From Entamoeba invadens IP1 (lineage: Eukaryota > Evosea > Mastigamoebida > Endamoebidae): a DNA stretch of 64,000 nt. Made by a program: the position numbers and the translations under genes. This document shows, in pieces, positions 2,494-59,241 of this stretch (within the stretch, counting starts at the first letter, position 1; every line of letters starts with the position of its first letter). The DNA is taken from contig NW_004443648.1 of assembly GCF_000330505.1 (NCBI RefSeq), forward strand, positions 180,536-244,535, read 5' to 3'. The notes below the pieces were generated by a model, which made no database searches, had not been told where the DNA came from, and saw only the letters and a program-made list of their open reading frames with translations.

Positions 2494-2846
2494 TACTGTT
2501 TTTATCTCAACAAGTCTTGTTTTTTGCACACTTTGGTTTTCCTATTTGTTTATAATATATTAATAGTAATATATAGTATAGACATTTCGCTTTTAATTTT
2601 AAATTATTAAAATTAAAAATTATTAACTATCAAATTATAATTTACTTTAATTAATTTTAAAACTAAAGTATGGTTATTTTATTATTATTTTTTTACTATC
2701 AAATGTGTGTAGTTGAATTTATAATAAAGAATTAATATATATAGCTTTTTGATGTAAACCATTTGAAATAATAAAAATATTAGAAATAAAAGATGAAGTT
2801 TTTAGGCTTCGAATTTCTAGCGAAACGACTGAAAAATTAAAAGGTG

Positions 2847-3425
2847 ATGGAAACACGGAATTTCAACTTTAAGGCAGCACCCTTTTTACCTCGGAGCAAA
2901 AGCCTTCAACTCGAAGAAGAAAAAATGAAAAACATCATCAAGCTTTTACCATCGGACACACCACAAGATATCATCGAACAAATCGAAAAGGCAAAACCGG
3001 AGATGCGAGAAATGATTGTCGAGAATTACATATCACAACTGTATGGAAACGTTTTTGATTCGGACGATTCGAGTGGGTCTTGGGAAACCGACACCAACTT
3101 CTGGGAAGAAGAGGGATTGCCGTCGGTGGAGGATTTGATTCAATACGGGAACTACGTGAAGGAAGAGAAATTGAAAGAGGAGTTAAACAACATTTGTGAG
3201 TATATAGACAACACCCCCCCTGATGAAAAAGGACAGGCGCTGTCTTTGAAAACAGCGAAAGAGTATACAGAGAGGTATAACAATGATCCAAGCGTGAATA
3301 CAGGGTATAAGGTCAACCACTGTCAATTGATGACTGTTTCGCAAATGACAAAGAATCAGACGTACGACGAGATAAAAATGACACTTGCAAGATATCACAC
3401 CTTTTTTAATGGCAACTTCGCGTAA
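2847..3425 (+). CDS. Unknown protein, possibly CUE-like helix bundle
   Basis: 192 residues from the ATG at 2847; a GTG three bases upstream extends the frame but is not a credible eukaryotic start. Residues 27-66 (from MKNIIKLLPSDTP) have the spacing of a small three-helix ubiquitin-binding CUE-type domain, with an LPSDTPQDII start and a LYG-type end, but this is a weak resemblance. The middle is acidic (SDDSSGSWETDTNFWEEE), and the rest is charged and helical. No signal peptide or TM helix. It lies in the same orientation as the next gene and is separated from it by about 120 bases. Confidence 0.6.
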   Translation: METRNFNFKAAPFLPRSKSLQLEEEKMKNIIKLLPSDTPQDIIEQIEKAKPEMREMIVENYISQLYGNVFDSDDSSGSWETDTNFWEEEGLPSVEDLIQYGNYVKEEKLKEELNNICEYIDNTPPDEKGQALSLKTAKEYTERYNNDPSVNTGYKVNHCQLMTVSQMTKNQTYDEIKMTLARYHTFFNGNFA

Positions 3426-14966: not shown

Positions 14967-15168
14967 AGTCTTTTTCTTTTTTTCAAACCTCATCACTTGT
15001 ACTTCATGACTTATATAGTATATATTAATAGTTTTTTATTAGACATGTTTATTTTTGTTTTGAACAATCTTCAATGACGAGGCAATACTTGTATTATTTA
15101 ATTTATTAAATATTTATATTATTAAATGATATAATATAAATATTATAATTATATTATAATAATATATA

Positions 15169-15341
<173 letters not shown>

Positions 15342-15416: not shown

Positions 15417-18400
15417 TTAGAAATCAGACCCCTCTCCACCTATTCGTAAAGACGATGCGCTTGAAGAAACATTTGTATCCTCTGAACTTGCACTCTTTTT
15501 CAAGTCGATTGAACCTTTCGACTCAATTGATTTTCTCCCCTCTTGTGGTTCTTCATTGGGCTTCTCTGCGACTTCCTTCATTTCCTTGACTTCTTTACTC
15601 TTTTCTTTACTCTCTTCTATTGATTTGTTCGACTTCTTTGACGATTTTGATGTCTTTGAACTTTTAGACTTCTCTGATTTGTCGGAAAGGGAAGTGTCTT
15701 CCTTCAAATTTTTAGTATCGACGCTTTGTGTAGTTTGCTCTGACTGTGGGAGGAGCGATTTTCTCTTTGAATTTTCATTCGAACCTTCTTTGTTAGTCAT
15801 CATAAACAATTTATATATTTTGTTGAGCATAATAGACACTTCATCGAATGGTGGACGGTCTCTTGGTGTTTGCATCCAACACTTTGTAATTGTTTCTTTA
15901 AATAAACAGTCGTCTGGGATATCGAGTCTTTTTCCATTCCCCACGAACTTCAAAATGGACTCTCCGTCCGGGAATTTGTCTTGTGGATAGCAGTCCTTTC
16001 CTTTCCAGATTTCCAACATACAAATCGAGAATGAATACACATCACTCTTCAGTGTCATTTGTTCAGTGACTTCATCTTTGTGGAGTGTCATTTCTATGAG
16101 TCAGTCTTTTGTAATCAAGTAATACAAAGATAAAACAAACCGGGCGCCATGTACATTGGTGTTCCAATATGTTGAATACCAAGTTTCTGTGAACTTTCAA
16201 TGAATGATCGTGATGTCCCAAAATCAGTGACTTTAGCTGTGACTGGGTCGTACGGATTCTTAGAGACTACCAAGACGTTGTCTGTCTTCAAATCTCTATG
16301 GACTATATCATTCTGATGCAAATATTCCATCCCTCTTGCAATGTCTTGACAGAACCGAATCTTCAAATGTGTAGTCATGTCGGTTGGGGAATTCCTCATG
16401 AACTTTCTTAAAGATCCCAATGGACAATACTCAGTCACTAAACATAATATCTCTGTTGTAGTAACACTTCCAATGTAATTGACAACGTATTGACATCGAA
16501 TACGCTCCATCATAGACGCCTCTTGCATAAAGTTAGGAAGAAGATCACTAATATTGACTAAATCAGTCTTCATCTGTTTGACAGCGACATCGACACCACG
16601 CCACTCTGCTCTGAAAACAGTTCCAAATGTGCCGGCTCCAATTGGTGGTCGAATCAAATTGATTTCGTCCAAATCAAGTCGAGTGGACAAGGCAGATTCA
16701 ACTTTTAAGTCTAAGTACACATAAAATTTGTTTGGAGTCTTTGGTTGCACCTTCTTCTTATCTTGTGATTTGGATTTGGACTTTGATTTGTCAGTCTCTT
16801 TAACAAATGACTTGTTCCGTGTATTTCTCGAGTTTGCTAGTGACGAACTCTTCGACTTGGAGTCGTGCGACATCTCTGAATTTTGTGAAGAGTGCGACTG
16901 AAGCTCTAACAAGTTTGGATTCTCCTCGACTAGTTCTTGCATGATTTGTTTGAATTTACCAAAGCGAACGGTGACGGGAATCTTCTCTTTTAAAACACAA
17001 GTGCAACTCACCGTCAATTTGCACTTCACTTCAGCAGATTGTCCCGGTCTGATGCTTTGCATAGCTGGGTCAAATGAGACAATGTACTTTGAATATTCTC
17101 CGCCGTGCATAATAACTCTCATTATCTCATTTGAGTTGTTATAGATCTTCACAGTCGCTTGTGTTTCCGTTTCCACTTCGACGTGGTTCTTACAGTCTTC
17201 AAACAAGATTTCGGTGTTATCAAATTGGAACAATTTATTTGGTTGCTTGATATCAATGTACTGCGCATTCTCTTTGTTAAATTTGATGATGGTCGAGTCT
17301 AACATGAATCGTTCATCTTTTTGTTGTTCATAAAGAATCAAGTCGGTCAAGTAGTTGTATCGAGCAAAGAACCCAATCATCAAGAAGATGTATAAAATGA
17401 TCCAAAGCCCAACACCACAAACAGCTATCGAGACATCAATGACATACTTCGGCTTGCGCTGACATGAAAGTTCTTTCCAAGTGAACCAATCTTCCTACAG
17501 TGTTATTCGTGTGTTTGGTGATACAAAGAGACAAACTTGACATTCACACTCATAACACCCATCACCTCCATCACACTATATTGTAAGTCACTCATTGGTG
17601 GTATTTAATTGAACAAACTTCTTCATCGTCATCTAACTCTTTGTTCCCACATAATGTGCTCAGACAGCCAAGTCTTGGCTTCTCATACGGTACATATCCT
17701 TCAGTACACATACAGTGCTGACATCCAAGTCCACCATCACACTCTTCATTTGAATCTATTTTATTGTTGTTACATGTTGGTGGAGCGCAATATGTCTTCC
17801 CAAGAATGTCCATTGGGTAGTATCCTTCTCTACATGAGCAAGTGGTATAATCACAATTTAAGTCGACGTAAGGGTCGTCAGTCTTTTCACACTCTTCTCC
17901 GTCGTTGTACACTCCATTGCCACATTGCGAACACGTGTCTGTCAACAAGACGTATCCTGCATCACATATACAAGTTTGAGTAACTCTGTCACACACCCCA
18001 TTTCCTCCACAATCATATGGACATAATGTTGTGATACTCAAATTAAATGCAGCGTTGTTCTCAGATACAACAGCAGCATAAATAAAGTAATCGTAGTCCT
18101 TCGATAATTTGACCATCATGGAAGAGTGGTGACTTCCTGGTTCAGGGCATCCAGATGTGTCATACCTCTCACATGTCACACCCAACAGATTCTCACCACT
18201 GGGATACCCACAGTCATCTGTCTCACTAATTGATGTTTGATGAAGTCTTTTAACCAAGTGAATTGCTGTGTAGTAATCTGTCTCCGAGTTGCATGTTGAT
18301 ATCAAGACATTTCTATCTGCACCTTCCAAGTAATACCACGACCCAAGTTGTTGAGTTAGAATACAAGCGGACCCAGATCTCACAGAATATGCCGTGTTGA

Positions 18401-48959: not shown

Positions 48960-51900
48960 ATGTTACTCATATCTCTTCTACTCATTTTCTATGTTCGAAG
49001 TGCTCCAGAGAACTGTGTCGAGTACATATCAGAGAACCATTGTGTCCAATGTAGTGATGGGTATTACCTTCAAATGGTGGACAATCCAACCACAGGGATT
49101 CCCTCTCTTCTCTGTGTTCAAAAGGGAACAATTGCGAATTGTGATGCTGAAGACTCTGGTCAGTGTGTCCGATGTCAGTCTGGGTACTACTTAAAGAATA
49201 ATCAATGTGTTGGTTGTACCACTGGGTGTAACTACTGCGATGAGAACCATTGCTTCCAGTGTGGGTCTGTAGATGGTGTTCAGTTATACCTTTCTACCGA
49301 TGAAACGCAATGCGTCGATTGTAGTAAATCAATCAATGATGAAGCTTGTGGAAGATGTTCGTCTGGGACGTACTTCGATACCACCACAAAGTCTTGCGCA
49401 AAGTGTTTCGACAGTTGCGCGTTATGTACGGAAGCAACGAACTGTTTCCAGTGTTCTGAAAAGTTACTTGAAAAGCACGCGGGCACTGCAGCCGACCCAG
49501 ACAAATGTGTTGACATAGTACATTGTTCGACTGGTAAGAATGATGATCACTGTGAGTCGTGTGATGCTGGCTATCGTCTTGAAGGTGGTAACTGTGTTCC
49601 ATGCAATTCCAATTGCACGTTGTGTTATAAGAAAGATGACGGAAAGACACAGTGCACCAAATGTGATGAAGGTTTTGTTCTGAACAAAGGAGAGTGTCAA
49701 ACGAAAGACTCATTAAATTGTGAAGTTGGGAGTGTCACTTATGGGTGTTTGCAGTGCAAGACTGGGTATTTCTTTGATAGCAATTTGGAGTGTGCAGAAT
49801 GTTCTTCTGACTGTGGGTCGTGTGTTTCCGAAGCAAGTAATTGCTTGTCGTGTTCCAAAGACCATTACTTCAAGAGTGGGACAACCACGTGTACAATGAA
49901 AGATGGAAATTGTTCGTTAGTTGATCAAGCTGGATGTAAAGAATGTGCGAACGACTTGAGTGGTGAAGGGTTGAAAAAGACTGGATACTATGTTCCGCCT
50001 GGGAAACAAGAGTGCGAAGAATGTGAAAAGAATTGTAAGCTCTGTGAAGGTGATAAAACGCATTGTACGGCATGTGTCACCAATTATGTGTTAAAAAAGA
50101 ATGGCGATCATTATGAATGTTACAACAAAAGTGAGACATGTATTGCCACTGGTTTGTTGTTTTCCGTGACTTATTGAAAAGAAATACTAACTGAATAGAA
50201 ATGGGGTATTGCACTGAATGCGAGAAAGGATATTTCATCGAAGCTAATGAAAACCAAGACTGCATCAAATGTGATCCGTCATGCGGTACTTGTAAAGACA
50301 AAGACAACTGTTTGACATGCGCAAGAGACTATTACTTGCCTAAGAATATGTCGTCTGTTGAAATGAAAGGGTTCTGTCGCCCTCAAAGTGAAATTAATTC
50401 CGTGTGTCAAGCGAACGTGAACGGATGCGAGAAGTGCAAGGAAGGGTTCTACATCAATAGCAAAGACCCAACCCAATACAACTGTACAAAATGCACAGAT
50501 GAGTGTAAAGATTGTGATTGGCTCTCAGAGGATGGGACTGATGTCACGAAAGGTCATGTCATTTGCACGTCATGTCCGACGGAATTTGGGTATGTCAATG
50601 ACGAAGGCCATTGTGTGCCCTGTTCCGGGCTAAAGAATTGTGCGACGTGTGATAAAGACAAATGCGCGACATGCAATGACGGATACAAGATGGATCCTGG
50701 ATCGAAGTCATGCTCGAAAACCAATTGGGCGTTAATTATTCCCCTTGTGATCTTGGGTGTTATCATAATTGTCATTATCTTGGTACTGCTCATAGCCTTT
50801 GTGTGGTGGAGAAGAACAAAAAGCGTCAAAGCGGAGACTGCAGCGATTAAACCGTTCCACGTCTCTTCTGATCTGGAGTTGATTCTCCTTGGCGCTGATA
50901 ACGAAAAGTTCCCATTGAAGACGGAGAAGTGGGAGCTGACATTCAACCTTGCGAAGTCGAAGGCTGTTGTTGATCAAGAGTATACAGAAACGTTTAACTT
51001 GGCGAATATGTCAAAGAAAGAATATTACTTTGAGTTCCATTTCACGCCAAGTCACAAATACGACTTAGATATCACACCAAAAAGTGCGACACTGAAACCA
51101 TCCACTGCTGTTCCCATAACTTTCAAAATTAAGATGTTGTGCACGGCTTCAGTGAGTGACAATATTGGTATCTCGGCGATGGATATTGATGATCAGAACA
51201 AAGAAACCGCGAAATTCACGATTGTGGTTGAATCCGACTTATCTCTTAAATTGGACCACACTGAATTAAAGCCAATGATGCCGCCAATTGGTGAAGGTGC
51301 ATTTGGGATGGTATTCAGAGGGACGTACAGAGGTAGAGATGTCGCCATTAAGAAAATGAAAGCGAGAAATTTGACACAAGAACAAGAGAAGGAGTTCAAT
51401 CACGAAGTTTCGATGATGACACAGTTGCGCCACAGCTGTGTTGTTGAGTTGATTGGAGCAGTCTACACGGAAGGAGAAATATCTATAGTCACTGAGTTTG
51501 CTGAATATGGATCTCTGAGTAAAGTGTGGGGAAAGCACCCAATTACGTACCAACTCAAAGTGAAGATATTGGACGATATGGCTGTTGCGTTAGCTTACTT
51601 GCATCAGAACACCATTATTCATCGTGATGTCAAAGGCGAGAATTTGTTGTTGTTTTCACTCAACCCCCGTTCGCCAGTCTGCGCGAAGTTAACAGACTTT
51701 GGGACGTGCAGAAACGTATCTGAGAGAAACTTGGCATCAAAGGCGTTATCACAAGGGATTGGAACGCCAACGTACATGCCGCCAGAGTGTTTGCAGAACT
51801 CTTCGGAGTACAGTTACCCCGTCGATGTGTATGCTTACGGTATGGTTTTGTATGAGACATACACCGAGAAGAACGCGTATGAAAATGATGAGCGATTCAA

Positions 51901-52261
51901 TCAGCCGTGGATGATTCCACAGTTTGTCATTGAAGGTAACAGACTTGACAAACCCAGTGGTGTTCCAGAGAATTACTGGGACTTGACCACAAAGTGTTGG
52001 TCACAGAATCCAGAGGACAGACCGACATTTGCTGAGGTTCTCACAAAAATCGAAGGGTGGGGTGAAGACATCAAATATGCTCTGAAGAACGACGGTGACA
52101 AGCATGTGGAAGAGTCCGATGTCTCAAGTAGTTCCACTCCATCTTCCCAAAGCAAAGACATGAGTAAAGGACAAAGCAAGCAACATGAAAACGTCCCCAC
52201 TGAAGCTGATGGAGTGGACAAGAGTATATCCTCGAAGAGTTCGAGTGATGATAAGCACTAA
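48960..52261 (+). CDS. Receptor-like transmembrane kinase (TMK) with CxxC-rich ectodomain, two exons
   Basis: Exons 48960-50151 and 50199-52261 give 1084 residues; the 47-nt intron starts GTTTGTTG and ends GAATAG (CIAT-E-MGYCTEC). A signal peptide (MLLISLLLIFYVRSA) is followed by about 550 residues of furin-like CxxC repeats (for example C-x2-C-x-SGYY), then a TM helix (about 574-600), an MSP-like beta domain (about 625-740) and a TKL kinase: GEGAFG loop (about 764), VAIKK (Lys about 782), HRDVKGEN (872), DFG (897) and MPPE. Catalytic residues are intact. The C-terminal tail is Ser/Lys-rich. This is the CXXC-type TMK family of Entamoeba; the ligand is unknown. Confidence 0.93.
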
Positions 52262-54213: not shown

Positions 54214-56328
54214 ATGGAATCATTAAAATCTCCATACTCTGTGGGACTTTTTCCAACGCTTTACCAACGTCGAATCTTTCCAACTTCGAAACCTCAACAA
54301 AATGGTGATATAATCACGCCACTTCACGTTTCGGTTTTTTTAAATCACCCCGAATTTATAGAAAGTTTAATAAATGATTATAGTATCAATGTTAATTCCC
54401 AAGACTCGTTTGGCAACACACCACTCATTTTAGCAGCTCAAGTTGGTAACATGGAAACGACAAAAATCTTGATGTCACACACACCATCAAATTCGCTGAC
54501 AAATCAATATGGACAAACGCCCATTCTCGTAGCTCTTCGATTCAATCATCCGGAGATTGCGCTTGAGATTGTCAAATCAATAAAAAATGCATTTCAAATC
54601 TTGAATACTCCAGACAACTGTGGGTACACCGTATTACACTACGCAGCTTTCTGTAACGACGAGAAAGTTCTTTCCGCGATCGAACAAATTTGTTTTGTTG
54701 ATGACATCATTGAGAATTCCATCAACCCGACATGCTCGACTCCGCTCCATATCGCTGCTCTGAATGGTTCGTACGTGACTTTAAAATGGTTACTCACCAA
54801 AGGCGCCAATCCAAATGCGGAGAATTGTATGGGGCAGAGTCCATTGTTGCTTGCTATCAAACACAAACACATTGAATGTATCAATTTGTTAATAGAAAAG
54901 ACTCTCTTAAACGTGCCAGATAATTACGGACAATTGGCACTTCACTATGCTGCTGCTGTCGGATGTCCCGTTGATATTATACAGAAACTCTGTGACAAGT
55001 ACCCCGATGCTTTGAATAAAATGGACGCAAATGGAAACTACCCTTTCCACCATGCAGTGAAGTCTAACACCCTCGTACTCCTCCAATTCTTCTTTAAAGA
55101 TGGGAAGTTACTTAAAAAGAGAAACTCGAATGGGCTCACCCCTATTATGTTGGCTGTCGCTTGTGGGGCTACGACTTCATTTGCATTCTTAATAAGACTC
55201 GGAGATGATACATACGGAAGATCACTCAGTGGGACGTCTGTGTTCATGTTGGCGTGCGCTTACAATCAACTGGAAATAGCAAGGGCTCTCTTCCAAGAAG
55301 ACCCTTCTGTCATTTCAGATGTCGACAATAACGGAAATACAGCAGCTCATTATGCTGTGCAGAACAATCGTGTTGAAGTCCTCAAGTGGATCAAAAGCAT
55401 TGCTTGCGAAATTGTGAAAAAGCCAAATGTCGTAGGAGAGACACCACTCCACATCGCGTGTTTGTGTGGGTACCAACAAATCACCGAAATATTGTTGGTC
55501 TTTGGGTTGACTATGACAGATACGACGACGATGGGAAGGACTCCCTTCCATTATTGTGTCCTCGGAGGCCATTTGCAATTGGTCAAGTTGTTACGACGCA
55601 ACGCGGAGACCGGGTGCTTTGTAGGAGATAAGAACAAACTGACACCGTTACACTACTGTTGCTTGTATGGGATGGTTCATCTGATGGACGATTTACTCTC
55701 TGCGTGTCCTGTTCTTTTAAATAGTCGAGACGGCTGCGGAAGGACACCACTTCATGTTGCTGTTGTTATGAATGATGCATTGAGTGTTAAAAAGTTGTTA
55801 GAACATGGTGCTGATACGACACAGATTGACATTCGAAAGATGTCTGCACTTCAGTCGTCGATCAACCGAGGATACATTCATTGTTATGAGCTAATAGCGA
55901 AAAAGGAGAGTTACACGACAATCAAAAAAGTGAAAATGGTCAACGACTTTTTGCGGGACGAGGATTACTTCCTCCGAGTAAAAAAAGACGACATTGTCAA
56001 TGTTTTTTGGGAGCATAAAAAGGGGTGGGCGTTAGGTATGGCTCGTGGGAAATATGGGATCTTTCCGATAACGAGGAGTATTGTAGTTTCACTTGAAAAA
56101 GATGAGCTCGACAAAATAGCGGAGATATTGATCAACAAAAAGATGGTGGAAAAAGGAGTTGATAAGAAGAATAGGTCGGCATCTGTGGCGACAAAAGAAC
56201 CGGAGAAAAAGAAGTTTAAAGCATACAGCCCAGTCGAACCGACAGAAATACTTGCGAATAAACAAATGCAAGAAGTCAAAAAGAAACAGAAGACAATATC
56301 TAAGTCTAAGACTCCTAAGGAATTTTAA
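54214..56328 (+). CDS. Ankyrin-repeat protein with C-terminal SH3 domain
   Basis: 704 residues in one exon. From about 30 to 560 there are about 15 ankyrin repeats (GNTPLILAAQVGNMETTKIL, GYTVLHYAAF, GETPLHIACLCGYQQITEIL, GRTPLHVAVVMNDALSVKKL). Residues 573-625 form an SH3 domain (NDFLRDEDYFLRVKKDDIVN ... WALGMARGKYGIFPITR), with the WxxG and GxFP hallmarks though the ALYDY entry is altered. The last 75 residues are basic. Such ANK-SH3 proteins scaffold cytoskeletal or signalling complexes; no partner is implied by neighbours. Confidence 0.88.
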   Translation: MESLKSPYSVGLFPTLYQRRIFPTSKPQQNGDIITPLHVSVFLNHPEFIESLINDYSINVNSQDSFGNTPLILAAQVGNMETTKILMSHTPSNSLTNQYGQTPILVALRFNHPEIALEIVKSIKNAFQILNTPDNCGYTVLHYAAFCNDEKVLSAIEQICFVDDIIENSINPTCSTPLHIAALNGSYVTLKWLLTKGANPNAENCMGQSPLLLAIKHKHIECINLLIEKTLLNVPDNYGQLALHYAAAVGCPVDIIQKLCDKYPDALNKMDANGNYPFHHAVKSNTLVLLQFFFKDGKLLKKRNSNGLTPIMLAVACGATTSFAFLIRLGDDTYGRSLSGTSVFMLACAYNQLEIARALFQEDPSVISDVDNNGNTAAHYAVQNNRVEVLKWIKSIACEIVKKPNVVGETPLHIACLCGYQQITEILLVFGLTMTDTTTMGRTPFHYCVLGGHLQLVKLLRRNAETGCFVGDKNKLTPLHYCCLYGMVHLMDDLLSACPVLLNSRDGCGRTPLHVAVVMNDALSVKKLLEHGADTTQIDIRKMSALQSSINRGYIHCYELIAKKESYTTIKKVKMVNDFLRDEDYFLRVKKDDIVNVFWEHKKGWALGMARGKYGIFPITRSIVVSLEKDELDKIAEILINKKMVEKGVDKKNRSASVATKEPEKKKFKAYSPVEPTEILANKQMQEVKKKQKTISKSKTPKEF

Positions 56329-56400: not shown

Positions 56401-56646
56401 TTAATTTAAACGACGGATACATTGAGCATATGCCTTTTGTGGAGATGAGTCCCGACCATTCACTGATTTACCATTGACTTTTACGTTCGCTAGATACTCT
56501 TTCATATACCCTGCCATATATTCTGTCGCACTATATGTATAGGTCACACCATTAACTGTTGCTACACCACTTAGGCCACTAAAGTGCGAAGCTATAGTCG
56601 CAGCTTCATCTTGAGGACTATTCGTAAAGTGTGGATGTCCGATCAT
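56401..56646 (-). CDS. Small conserved-looking protein, unknown
   Basis: 81 residues from ATG 56646. Composition is well structured (HFSGLSGVATVNGVTYTYSA, EYMAGYMKEYLANVKVNGKS, NGRDSSPQKAYAQC), alternating short strands and helices. No TM or signal. It reads as a genuine compact domain, but I cannot name the family. It ends about 70 bases from the ANK-SH3 stop, convergently. Confidence 0.55.
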   Translation of the reverse strand: MIGHPHFTNSPQDEAATIASHFSGLSGVATVNGVTYTYSATEYMAGYMKEYLANVKVNGKSVNGRDSSPQKAYAQCIRRLN

Positions 56647-56833
56647 GTTGATTGAAATGGTTTGTTCGTTTGTTTTTATTTGACTTTCACAAAAGTCTCT
56701 TCAAATCGGGAATATATACTTCAACATTTCTTAGTTCTTATTAACTAAAAATGAAAGATTTATTCTAATTATAAGTGAGACTTAAAAATATTTTTTTAAT
56801 AAGAATAAACTAATTAAAATATATGTTTAGATT

Positions 56834-57273
56834 GGGTCAGGCTTATTCCACCACCACCTCTAAAAATAGACTATTTTTACTATTTGATATAATATTCAAA
56901 TTAAAATTATAGTAAATAGGAAACTGGGAAGATATTAGGTCTGGTTCCCGAATTCAAGAAATGCCGAAAATTCACCTTGATTTAGTGGAAACCGAGTGAG
57001 ACGGAGCATTGAAAAGAAGGCTCTGAAGACACACTCAAACAGTCTGTTTGTGCACCGTTTCACCCACTTTCCAAGTCCTCCCTTGGCGCGGAACCCCCCT
57101 GACCCCCCCCGCAAGCGGGGGGGGGGGAACCACATCCGCGTCCACACAGTACGGACAAGGAAAGTGGGTGACATGGGGACGCACAAACAGTGGCTGAAAA
57201 ATGGACTTCCTTCAAAAAACACTCGCGGCAAATATTTTTTTTGGTAAAGGTGGTGGTGGAAAAAGCCGGTCCC
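56834..57273. mobile_element. Mutator-type miniature foldback element, 26-bp TIRs, 9-bp target duplication
   Basis: The left TIR (56834-56859, GGGTCAGGCTTATTCC then ACCACCACCT) and right TIR (57248-57273, inverted) differ at 3 of 26 bases. A perfect 9-bp duplication GTTTAGATT flanks them at 56825-56833 and 57274-57282. 9-bp duplications with long TIRs are the hallmark of Mutator-like elements, known in Entamoeba. The interior (56930-57250) is unusually GC-rich and partly self-complementary (CACCCACTTTCC with GGAAAGTGGGTG; GTTTGTGC with GCACAAAC), meeting at a CCCCCCCCGC-AA-GCGGGGGGGG hairpin (57103-57124). No transposase is encoded; open frames on both strands are by-products. Confidence 0.85.
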
Positions 57274-57282
57274 GTTTAGATT

Positions 57283-57810: not shown

Positions 57811-59241
57811 ATGGATCAATTATTGGAGGATTTACGTGTTTGTTTTGTTGCCTCTAACTTTGTTTGTGTGATAAAACGTTGACAGACAGCAGTGTAAAGA
57901 CCCTCAGTCAATTGTGGACTTCCCCGAATTAAAACCGGAGTACTTAGAACAACTCTCCACTTTTCAACCAAAAGGTGATGTGGTGAACTGTGTTATCTCC
58001 ACTTTGAATCAGAATAAGTCCTCCCTTCATTATTCAAATTTGCGAGAAGACCGTATTACTCAACCAGGTCTGACTGTCCAAACGAAGTCGAATTATCCAT
58101 TCACCGAAATTGGCAGTAAAGACAAAGTTGGGCAACCTACTGCCGATGCCTATTGTGTATGGCGTTGTGCAAATTTCATGGTGTTCTGCGTGTGTGATGG
58201 GTGCGGTTTGCTTCTTAGATAACACAATTTTCAACGTTACAAGTGTATAGACATGATAAGTATAACAAATAGGATGGGGTCAAGACTCAAGTTACGTGGC
58301 GCGAGTTGCCAGTGCGGTCTTTGTCAGTTACATGCAAAAATATATTCAAGAGAATGAAAACGCGATGACCACAAAGTCGATGATCGAGCACGTCAAAAAA
58401 GCTGTAGCAATTGCGCACCAAATTGGGTCAACAACGTACTTCATTCAAGGCAAAAACATAGGGAGTTGCACATTATGTGGTGGTGTTGTAGTTCCACTCG
58501 TCCCCGAAGAAGAGTTAAAAGGCCTTCAAGTGAATGAGAGTGACATGGTAGACTCAAAGAGTGCTTTAAGACACCGTGTCGATGAATACAAACATACAAC
58601 CAAGACTGACAAAATGACAGAGAAGTATCAATACATAGGGGTGAGTGTAGGAGACTGTAAAGCGTATTTTGTCGATCGTAGTCTTCCCAAGCATAATTGT
58701 GTTGATTTAACATATGGAAGTCGTTTGAAATCAAAAATTGGGAATGACCCGGGAGGACGTATAGGGAAGACCAAAGAAGAGTTAACAAAGATGGACTTAC
58801 GCAATGGGATCTACTTTGCTCAGATGATGCATTGGAACGATTATTTAATCGTCTGTTCCGATGGTATTCACGACAACTTAGAGCCAAAAACTCGAGGAAT
58901 GAGTGTCGAAGAAGTTTTACCCACCAAAAAGGGAGTGAAATGGAACGCATTGACTTCCGAAGACGTCGAACTGATTAACAAAAATTATAGGTTTGTTATT
59001 AATAGTTATATAGTTCATGCATGCAACAAGAAAATAACTCCATAGTCTCGCGTTTCTCGAGGAAATGGAATCGCACGCCGTTAGTGTCCACCAGTTCCAT
59101 CAAATCATTATGGACTCTGTCGAAGGAGTCGTTAAAGATATTAGAGACTTCTCGGAAAAGTACCCCCTCGAAGCTATTCCTTCTCAATTCTCCGGTAAAC
59201 TCGACCACGCCACTTTACTTGTTGCTCGTCCCGCGATGTGA
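57811..59241 (+). CDS. PP2C/PPM-like phosphatase, DGCGWG type, four exons
   Basis: Exons 57811-57837, 57890-58205, 58273-58990 and 59046-59241 give 418 residues. Introns 2 and 3 (67 and 55 nt) start GTTTGC/GTTTGT and end TAG; the first (52 nt, GTTTGT, ACAG) is less certain, an alternative being donor 57836 with acceptor AAAG at 57899. Joins give CDGCG-WGQDSSYVARVAS and KNY-SLAFLEEMESHA. Metal-site blocks are TADAYCV, DGCGWG (112-117; DGHGG in classic PP2C) and CSDGIHDNL; the end is GKLDHATLLVARPAM. It should be a Mg/Mn-dependent Ser/Thr phosphatase of the group with DGCGWG. Substrate unknown. Confidence 0.85.

Follow-up and report, generated by a model that had tools for sequence, protein, structure and literature searches.

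The window, that is, the whole stretch of 64,000 nucleotides of the Entamoeba invadens IP1 genome analysed here, contains a 440-bp mobile element whose features are collected in Table 1. The element is flanked by an ankyrin/SH3 frame, which ends at 56328, and by another frame, whose start is at 58332; about 190 bp separate it from the start of a short minus-strand frame (56401-56646), to which it lies upstream. The best named relatives of the window's ankyrin protein, at 54-61%, are found in E. nuttalli, E. marina and E. invadens, and the protein may be one of several paralogues. Elsewhere in the window, a 686-aa frame (50201-52261) carries a protein kinase domain (PF07714, E 5.5e-53) and, as judged by eye, an N-terminal part rich in CxxC and a transmembrane stretch; we class it with the transmembrane kinases of Entamoeba. 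Two adjacent minus-strand frames (16115-17383 and 15417-16091) match consecutive parts of a single protein kinase domain and represent either an intron-containing gene or a disrupted copy, and a TAT repeat of 66 copies (about 200 bp, 95% matches) occupies positions 15141-15339.

Table 1. Features of the element and of its insertion site, in window coordinates.
Feature	Position	Strand	Basis or remark
Left target site duplication GTTTAGATT	56825..56833	.	exact, pairs with 57274..57282
Non-autonomous Mutator-type element (MITE), 440 bp	56834..57273	+	copies and target duplications
Left terminal inverted repeat, 26 bp	56834..56859	+	inverted-repeat comparison and end pattern
Outer 14-bp module, B type, GGGTCAGGCTTATT	56834..56847	+	8/14 positions unlike the majority A type
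CCACCACCACCT tract, common to A- and B-type ends and several MULE ends	56848..56859	+	proposed joint of end exchange (inferred)
Left subterminal block, 8 fixed A/B differences (consensus positions 29-59)	56860..56892 (window end approximate)	+	
GC-rich foldback core	57044..57190	+	stems 57044-57053/57181-57190 and 57055-57078/57153-57176
Poly-C/poly-G hairpin	57103..57127 (about)	+	run lengths differ from copy to copy
Right terminal inverted repeat, 26 bp	57248..57273	-	matches a MULE-remnant end on contig C90 at 25/26
Right target site duplication GTTTAGATT	57274..57282	.	exact

A previous reading of the bare sequence had described a miniature element with 26-bp terminal inverted repeats bearing three mismatches, a perfect 9-bp target duplication, a self-complementary GC-rich interior and a poly-C/poly-G hairpin. 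Each of these features was recovered, and the anatomy of the element is confirmed as real. The inverted arms extend over 56834-56862 and 57245-57273, with 23 matches in the outer 26 bp, and the end pattern was matched twice in the window and never in 100 shuffles. The GC content of the element is 0.47 overall, rising to 0.75 and 0.70 in two core bins of 40 bp and falling to 0.10 in the second bin, the interior being AT-rich near the left end; the 2-kb bins of the window range from 0.24 to 0.43. The folding energy of the DNA, calculated on 441 bases including one base of the right duplication, is -93.4 kcal/mol as against -52 +/- 4 kcal/mol in 100 shuffles (z -10.4). Transposase coding is absent from the element; its longest listed ATG frame, of 79 aa, was given no weight.

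A search of the genome for other copies, as the sequence-only reading had proposed, was successful: a 24-bp segment of the core, with up to three mismatches, was matched at 147 places (control 0), corresponding to about 150 relatives. Since many of these relatives have a different duplication of their own, the structure seen in the window goes beyond chance. Of 205 first-look candidates, 40 were scored in the DNA search: the window copy plus 39 more with 92-95% identity, which mostly align over bases 15-426 or 15-441 of 441. Most copies carry an end of a majority type, here called A (GGGACCTACATTGA), and the A-type end GGGACCTACATTGACCACC occurs 129 times with at most one mismatch (control 0); the window copy bears the rarer type B. 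Fifty-four loci (L001-L030 and L067-L090) were examined, picked among the best-scoring or end-bearing places, so that the rates given here are biased towards intact copies; the ends could be paired in 44 and not in 10. With the ends anchored, exact target duplications of 8-11 bp flank 36 of the 44 paired copies (9 bp in 19, 10 bp in 13, 11 bp in two and 8 bp in two), and three more have a duplication with one mismatch, giving 39 of 44 with at most one. The other five have no duplication of at least 8 bp (only 6 bp in one, none in four). When left and right flanks of different copies were paired as a control, an exact repeat of 9-11 bp was found in 0 of 1892 combinations. The duplication length of the family is not strictly 9 bp. 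An extra base had been seen at left ends because a first pass fixed the duplication at 9 bp; it is part of the 10- and 11-bp duplications, and capture of a flanking base was dropped as an explanation. The duplications are AT-rich, approximately like the flanks (81% vs 84%, 40 copies). In length, 42 of the 44 paired copies measure 429-448 bp and the other two 488 and 610 bp. The family is short, multi-copy, uniform in length and devoid of transposase coding, as is characteristic of miniature inverted-repeat transposable elements (MITEs).

Insertion is moreover demonstrated, by means of empty paralogous sites, for two copies of the family: L026 has empty counterparts at L027 and L006, and L014 at L028 and L062, all 80-82% identical and holding, with small differences, a single copy of the duplicated sequence. 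The flanks of the window copy have no other match in the genome, and no empty paralogous site was found for it there. Five older copies, 74-80% identical (L062-L066, on contigs C22, C23, C51, C189 and C201), have flanks in common and look like one old insertion multiplied within a larger repeat; on account of these common flanks, their treatment as a separate end subfamily was dropped. Contig C201 (L066) also has a beta-amylase frame, which matches an Entamoeba invadens record at 100% identity over 431 aa. The B-type copy at L068 (about 2721-3330) measures 610 bp, has an extra stretch inside its core, possibly a nested insertion, and is bounded by a 9-bp duplication that is exact.

As to the age of the insertions, the A copies have a mean mutual identity of 95.2% and L020 reaches 99.8% identity with the majority, which makes some of the A amplification look fairly young. 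For the window copy, the identity is 93.6% with the majority and 95.8% with L002. Its insertion had been considered recent, from the near-identity of its ends and the perfect duplication. The exact duplication is indeed consistent with an insertion that is not very old; the near-identity of the ends is uninformative, since the three mismatches between left and right end (positions 4, 6 and 12) recur in L002 and L003, were very probably inherited, to judge from this distribution, and do not date the insertion.

Candidate partners were found among the Mutator-like elements (MULEs) of the genome, in which the MULE profile PF10551 has 105 matches at E up to 0.001. A MULE of 2562 bp on contig C180, with ends GGGACCGACTTATTTCACCACC, is bounded by the exact duplication GTCTAATTA; its 515-aa frame matches PF10551 at E 1.2e-14, and is 45% identical to E. 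invadens EIN_462100 over 444 positions; after a stop, a second frame of 165 aa comes next. Contig C90 has an end matching the right end of the window element at 25 of 26 positions; it is situated about 670 bp past a stretch, preceded by N, that is 44% identical to the C180 transposase over 79 aa. On contigs C43 and C49, MULE transposase-like sequence is accompanied by an end resembling the majority subfamily, with 97% identity over 37 bp and about 70% over the left ~147 bp of the MITE; the far ends of both are unreadable. A 41-base MULE-specific end pattern occurs, with up to three mismatches, at these two places only. Beyond the C43 transposase piece the stretch examined is N throughout, and of the three matched stretches of C49 two contain stops; the far end of C49 could not be located, and the sequence there resembles, by eye, a Tc1-type element. 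Inside or beside the C49 MULE lies a strongly diverged, AT-richer relative of the MITE (L079 805-1101, about 71%) with an A-like end. Among 30 MULE loci (L031-L060), three (L042, L054 and L057) belong to other families of 2582-2685 bp, with GATGGATA ends and 9-bp duplications, and three others (L038, L039 and L051) have ends of a build similar to those of the window element (GGG, a variable stretch and a CACC-type tract). From these end types it follows that window-like ends belong to a part of the MULEs. The expectation of a MULE with the same terminal repeats therefore held for the ends, related ones being present on C90, C43, C49 and C180, but no intact transposase gene between exact A- or B-type ends was seen in the readable sequence of these four contigs. 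Derivation of the MITE from the C180 MULE by simple deletion was rejected, as only the ends match. In their readable stretches the partners have the ends but lack the GC-rich core, so that origin of the MITE from one of them by simple internal deletion may be supposed but does not follow.

The window element is, in our judgement with very little doubt, an ordinary non-autonomous Mutator-like element (MULE-type MITE) of Entamoeba. The duplications of 8-11 bp, exact in 36 of the 44 paired copies and of 9 bp in the window, are those of the Mutator superfamily, and the terminal repeats appear, from their identity to the ends on C90 for the window type and on C43 and C49 for the A subfamily, to be common to MULE-bearing elements. 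In the proposed mechanism, a MULE transposase supplied by a larger element elsewhere in the genome would bind the terminal repeats of the MITE, both the choice of transposase and its action through these ends being inferred from end likeness; it would then cut the MITE out (or copy it), the element would be joined to a target cut mostly with a stagger of 9-10 bp, and host repair would fill the stagger, leaving the direct duplication.

The family is unusual in that two sets of transposase-type ends are found on one common interior. In the A copies, both outer 14-mers together have at most two mismatches in 36 of 39 copies and none in 22 of 39, the figure being biased because many of these loci were picked for carrying that end. 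The window copy, L002 and L003 bear B ends and differ from A at 13, 14 and 14 of the 28 outer positions, and in the inner part at only 15/407, 23/405 and 22/404 positions, respectively. L068 and L069 are more diverged B-type copies. Intact B-type ends are few: a pattern for right ends that start with GGGACC but do not continue as A was matched at six places, namely the B-type window copy, L002, L003 and L068, a third type at L025, and L089. The change flagged in L089 is a one-base insertion in an A end and not an end replacement; the end mismatches of L084, which was not flagged, likewise reflect an indel. When a fixed difference is defined as one that all three B copies have but fewer than 20% of the 39 A copies, there are 18, of which four fall at positions 1-14, eight at 27-59, two at 98-99 and four at 428-434; positions 100-427 have none. 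Sets of three A copies drawn at random gave at most three such differences, with any within the outer 14 in 3 of 2000 draws. Furthermore, mosaic copies were found: in L012 a B subterminal block stands between A ends, and positions 98-99 are in the A state; in L006 the block itself is mixed; L068 joins a B right end to the A state at 98-99, and L025 has an A left end and a third-type right end (5/14 changed) with an exact 9-bp duplication; the B state at 98-99 also occurs in six A copies.

The layout of the fixed differences and the mosaics suggest an exchange of transposase-type ends. We lean slightly towards a model in which the ends were swapped as modules, of about 60 bp at the left and 14 bp at the right, through gene conversion or recombination with the shared CCACCACC tract as joint, so that the family would have passed between MULE transposase lineages. 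A possible, though rather doubtful, alternative is that the ends of one lineage diverged fast under selection for a diverging transposase; it competes with the exchange of ends only and leaves the MITE reading untouched. It is favoured by the tree of the interior, built on 49 rows with L075 and L079 left out, in which 27 of 46 inner branches have support under 80 and which does not reject that the B-type copies arose only once (p-AU 0.095 with 11 rows, 0.383 with three), so that one change could suffice; for this reason no number of end switches is claimed. It is also favoured by the diverged relative L079, whose A-like end means that A-type ends may be old; a separate tree that included L079 had poor support. 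Against fast divergence stand the confinement of all 18 fixed differences to positions 1-99 and 428-434, the existence in the genome of MULE elements with each end type, and the mosaic copies L012 and L025. As for the direction of the proposed exchange of ends, older B-like copies suggest a passage from B, the type of the window, to A, followed by amplification of A; the A-like end of L079 speaks against so simple an order.

It was also considered that the core might be a functional RNA or a regulatory hairpin under selection, to which the spread of the element would be due. Its strong folding is in line with such a role, as is the pairing of 89.6% of the cells in the two main stems against at most 51.2% with partners slid (23 pairs, 16 sequences), although an excess over slid controls is expected because the stems were taken from these same sequences. 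The covariation count, made on 16 of the 19 aligned sequences (L020, L068 and L085 omitted), found none of the 23 stem pairs with both partners altered, and pairing at the level of shuffled data (89.6% vs 89.6%); a compensation apparent by eye in L079 is absent from the pair count. In addition, Rfam gave no match at gathering score in the window, with four weaker matches in the element region far below the cut-offs, and in L062-L066 the left arm carries more changes than the right. A functional hairpin was rejected on the absence of covariation and is regarded as very improbable; the foldback core is best read as unconstrained cargo.

Transposons of the hAT, P and Merlin superfamilies produce duplications of 8-9 bp. 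That the MITE belongs to one of these, its likeness to MULE ends being coincidental, is a very improbable explanation, to which the 8-bp duplications of two of the 44 copies and the hAT element recorded for E. invadens in PMC2657916 lend some colour, against the exact duplications of 9 or 10 bp in 32 of the 44 copies and of 11 bp in two, and the end identity to MULE-bearing elements of 25/26 (C90) and 97% over 37 bp (C43 and C49). The Mutator-type assignment made from the sequence was thus upheld by the roughly 150 relatives, by the MULEs with related ends and by empty sites, the last for two other copies only.

One of the Mutator elements of E. invadens, EMULE-Ei1, is said to go back to Pritham et al. 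EMULE and phantom are listed among the Mutator elements of this species (PMC2657916); EMULE-Ei1 is reported to measure 2,882 bp, with 187-bp terminal repeats, a 456-aa protein and a 9-bp duplication (PMC2725143, PMC2657916), and MULE target duplications to range from 8 to 11 bp (PMC6446971). The window element resembles EMULE-Ei1, as described there, in coming from the same genus and probably the same species, in its relation to a Mutator-type transposase and in the 9-bp duplication; it differs in its 440 bp, the lack of a transposase, the 26-bp ends and the GC-rich foldback core. By its description in PMC2657916, phantom is likewise a Mutator-type class II element of E. invadens. MuTAnT of Medicago, as presented in PMC4486113, also consists of Mutator-like elements in many copies, but is described as targeting TA microsatellites, whereas the duplications described here are close to their flanks in AT content (81% vs 84%). 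A literature search by title and beginning of the abstract, covering sources other than subscription papers and Repbase, returned no record of this MITE family and, within the same scope, no description of an exchange of ends in Entamoeba MULEs; the family may already be catalogued in Repbase or in subscription papers.

These results add to Entamoeba a well-documented family of Mutator-type MITEs together with candidate partner elements. If the exchange of ends is true, the family would represent a natural case of a non-autonomous element changing its transposase, in which the joints and the mosaics can be identified, and the outer 14 bp would be indicated as what decides the choice of transposase.
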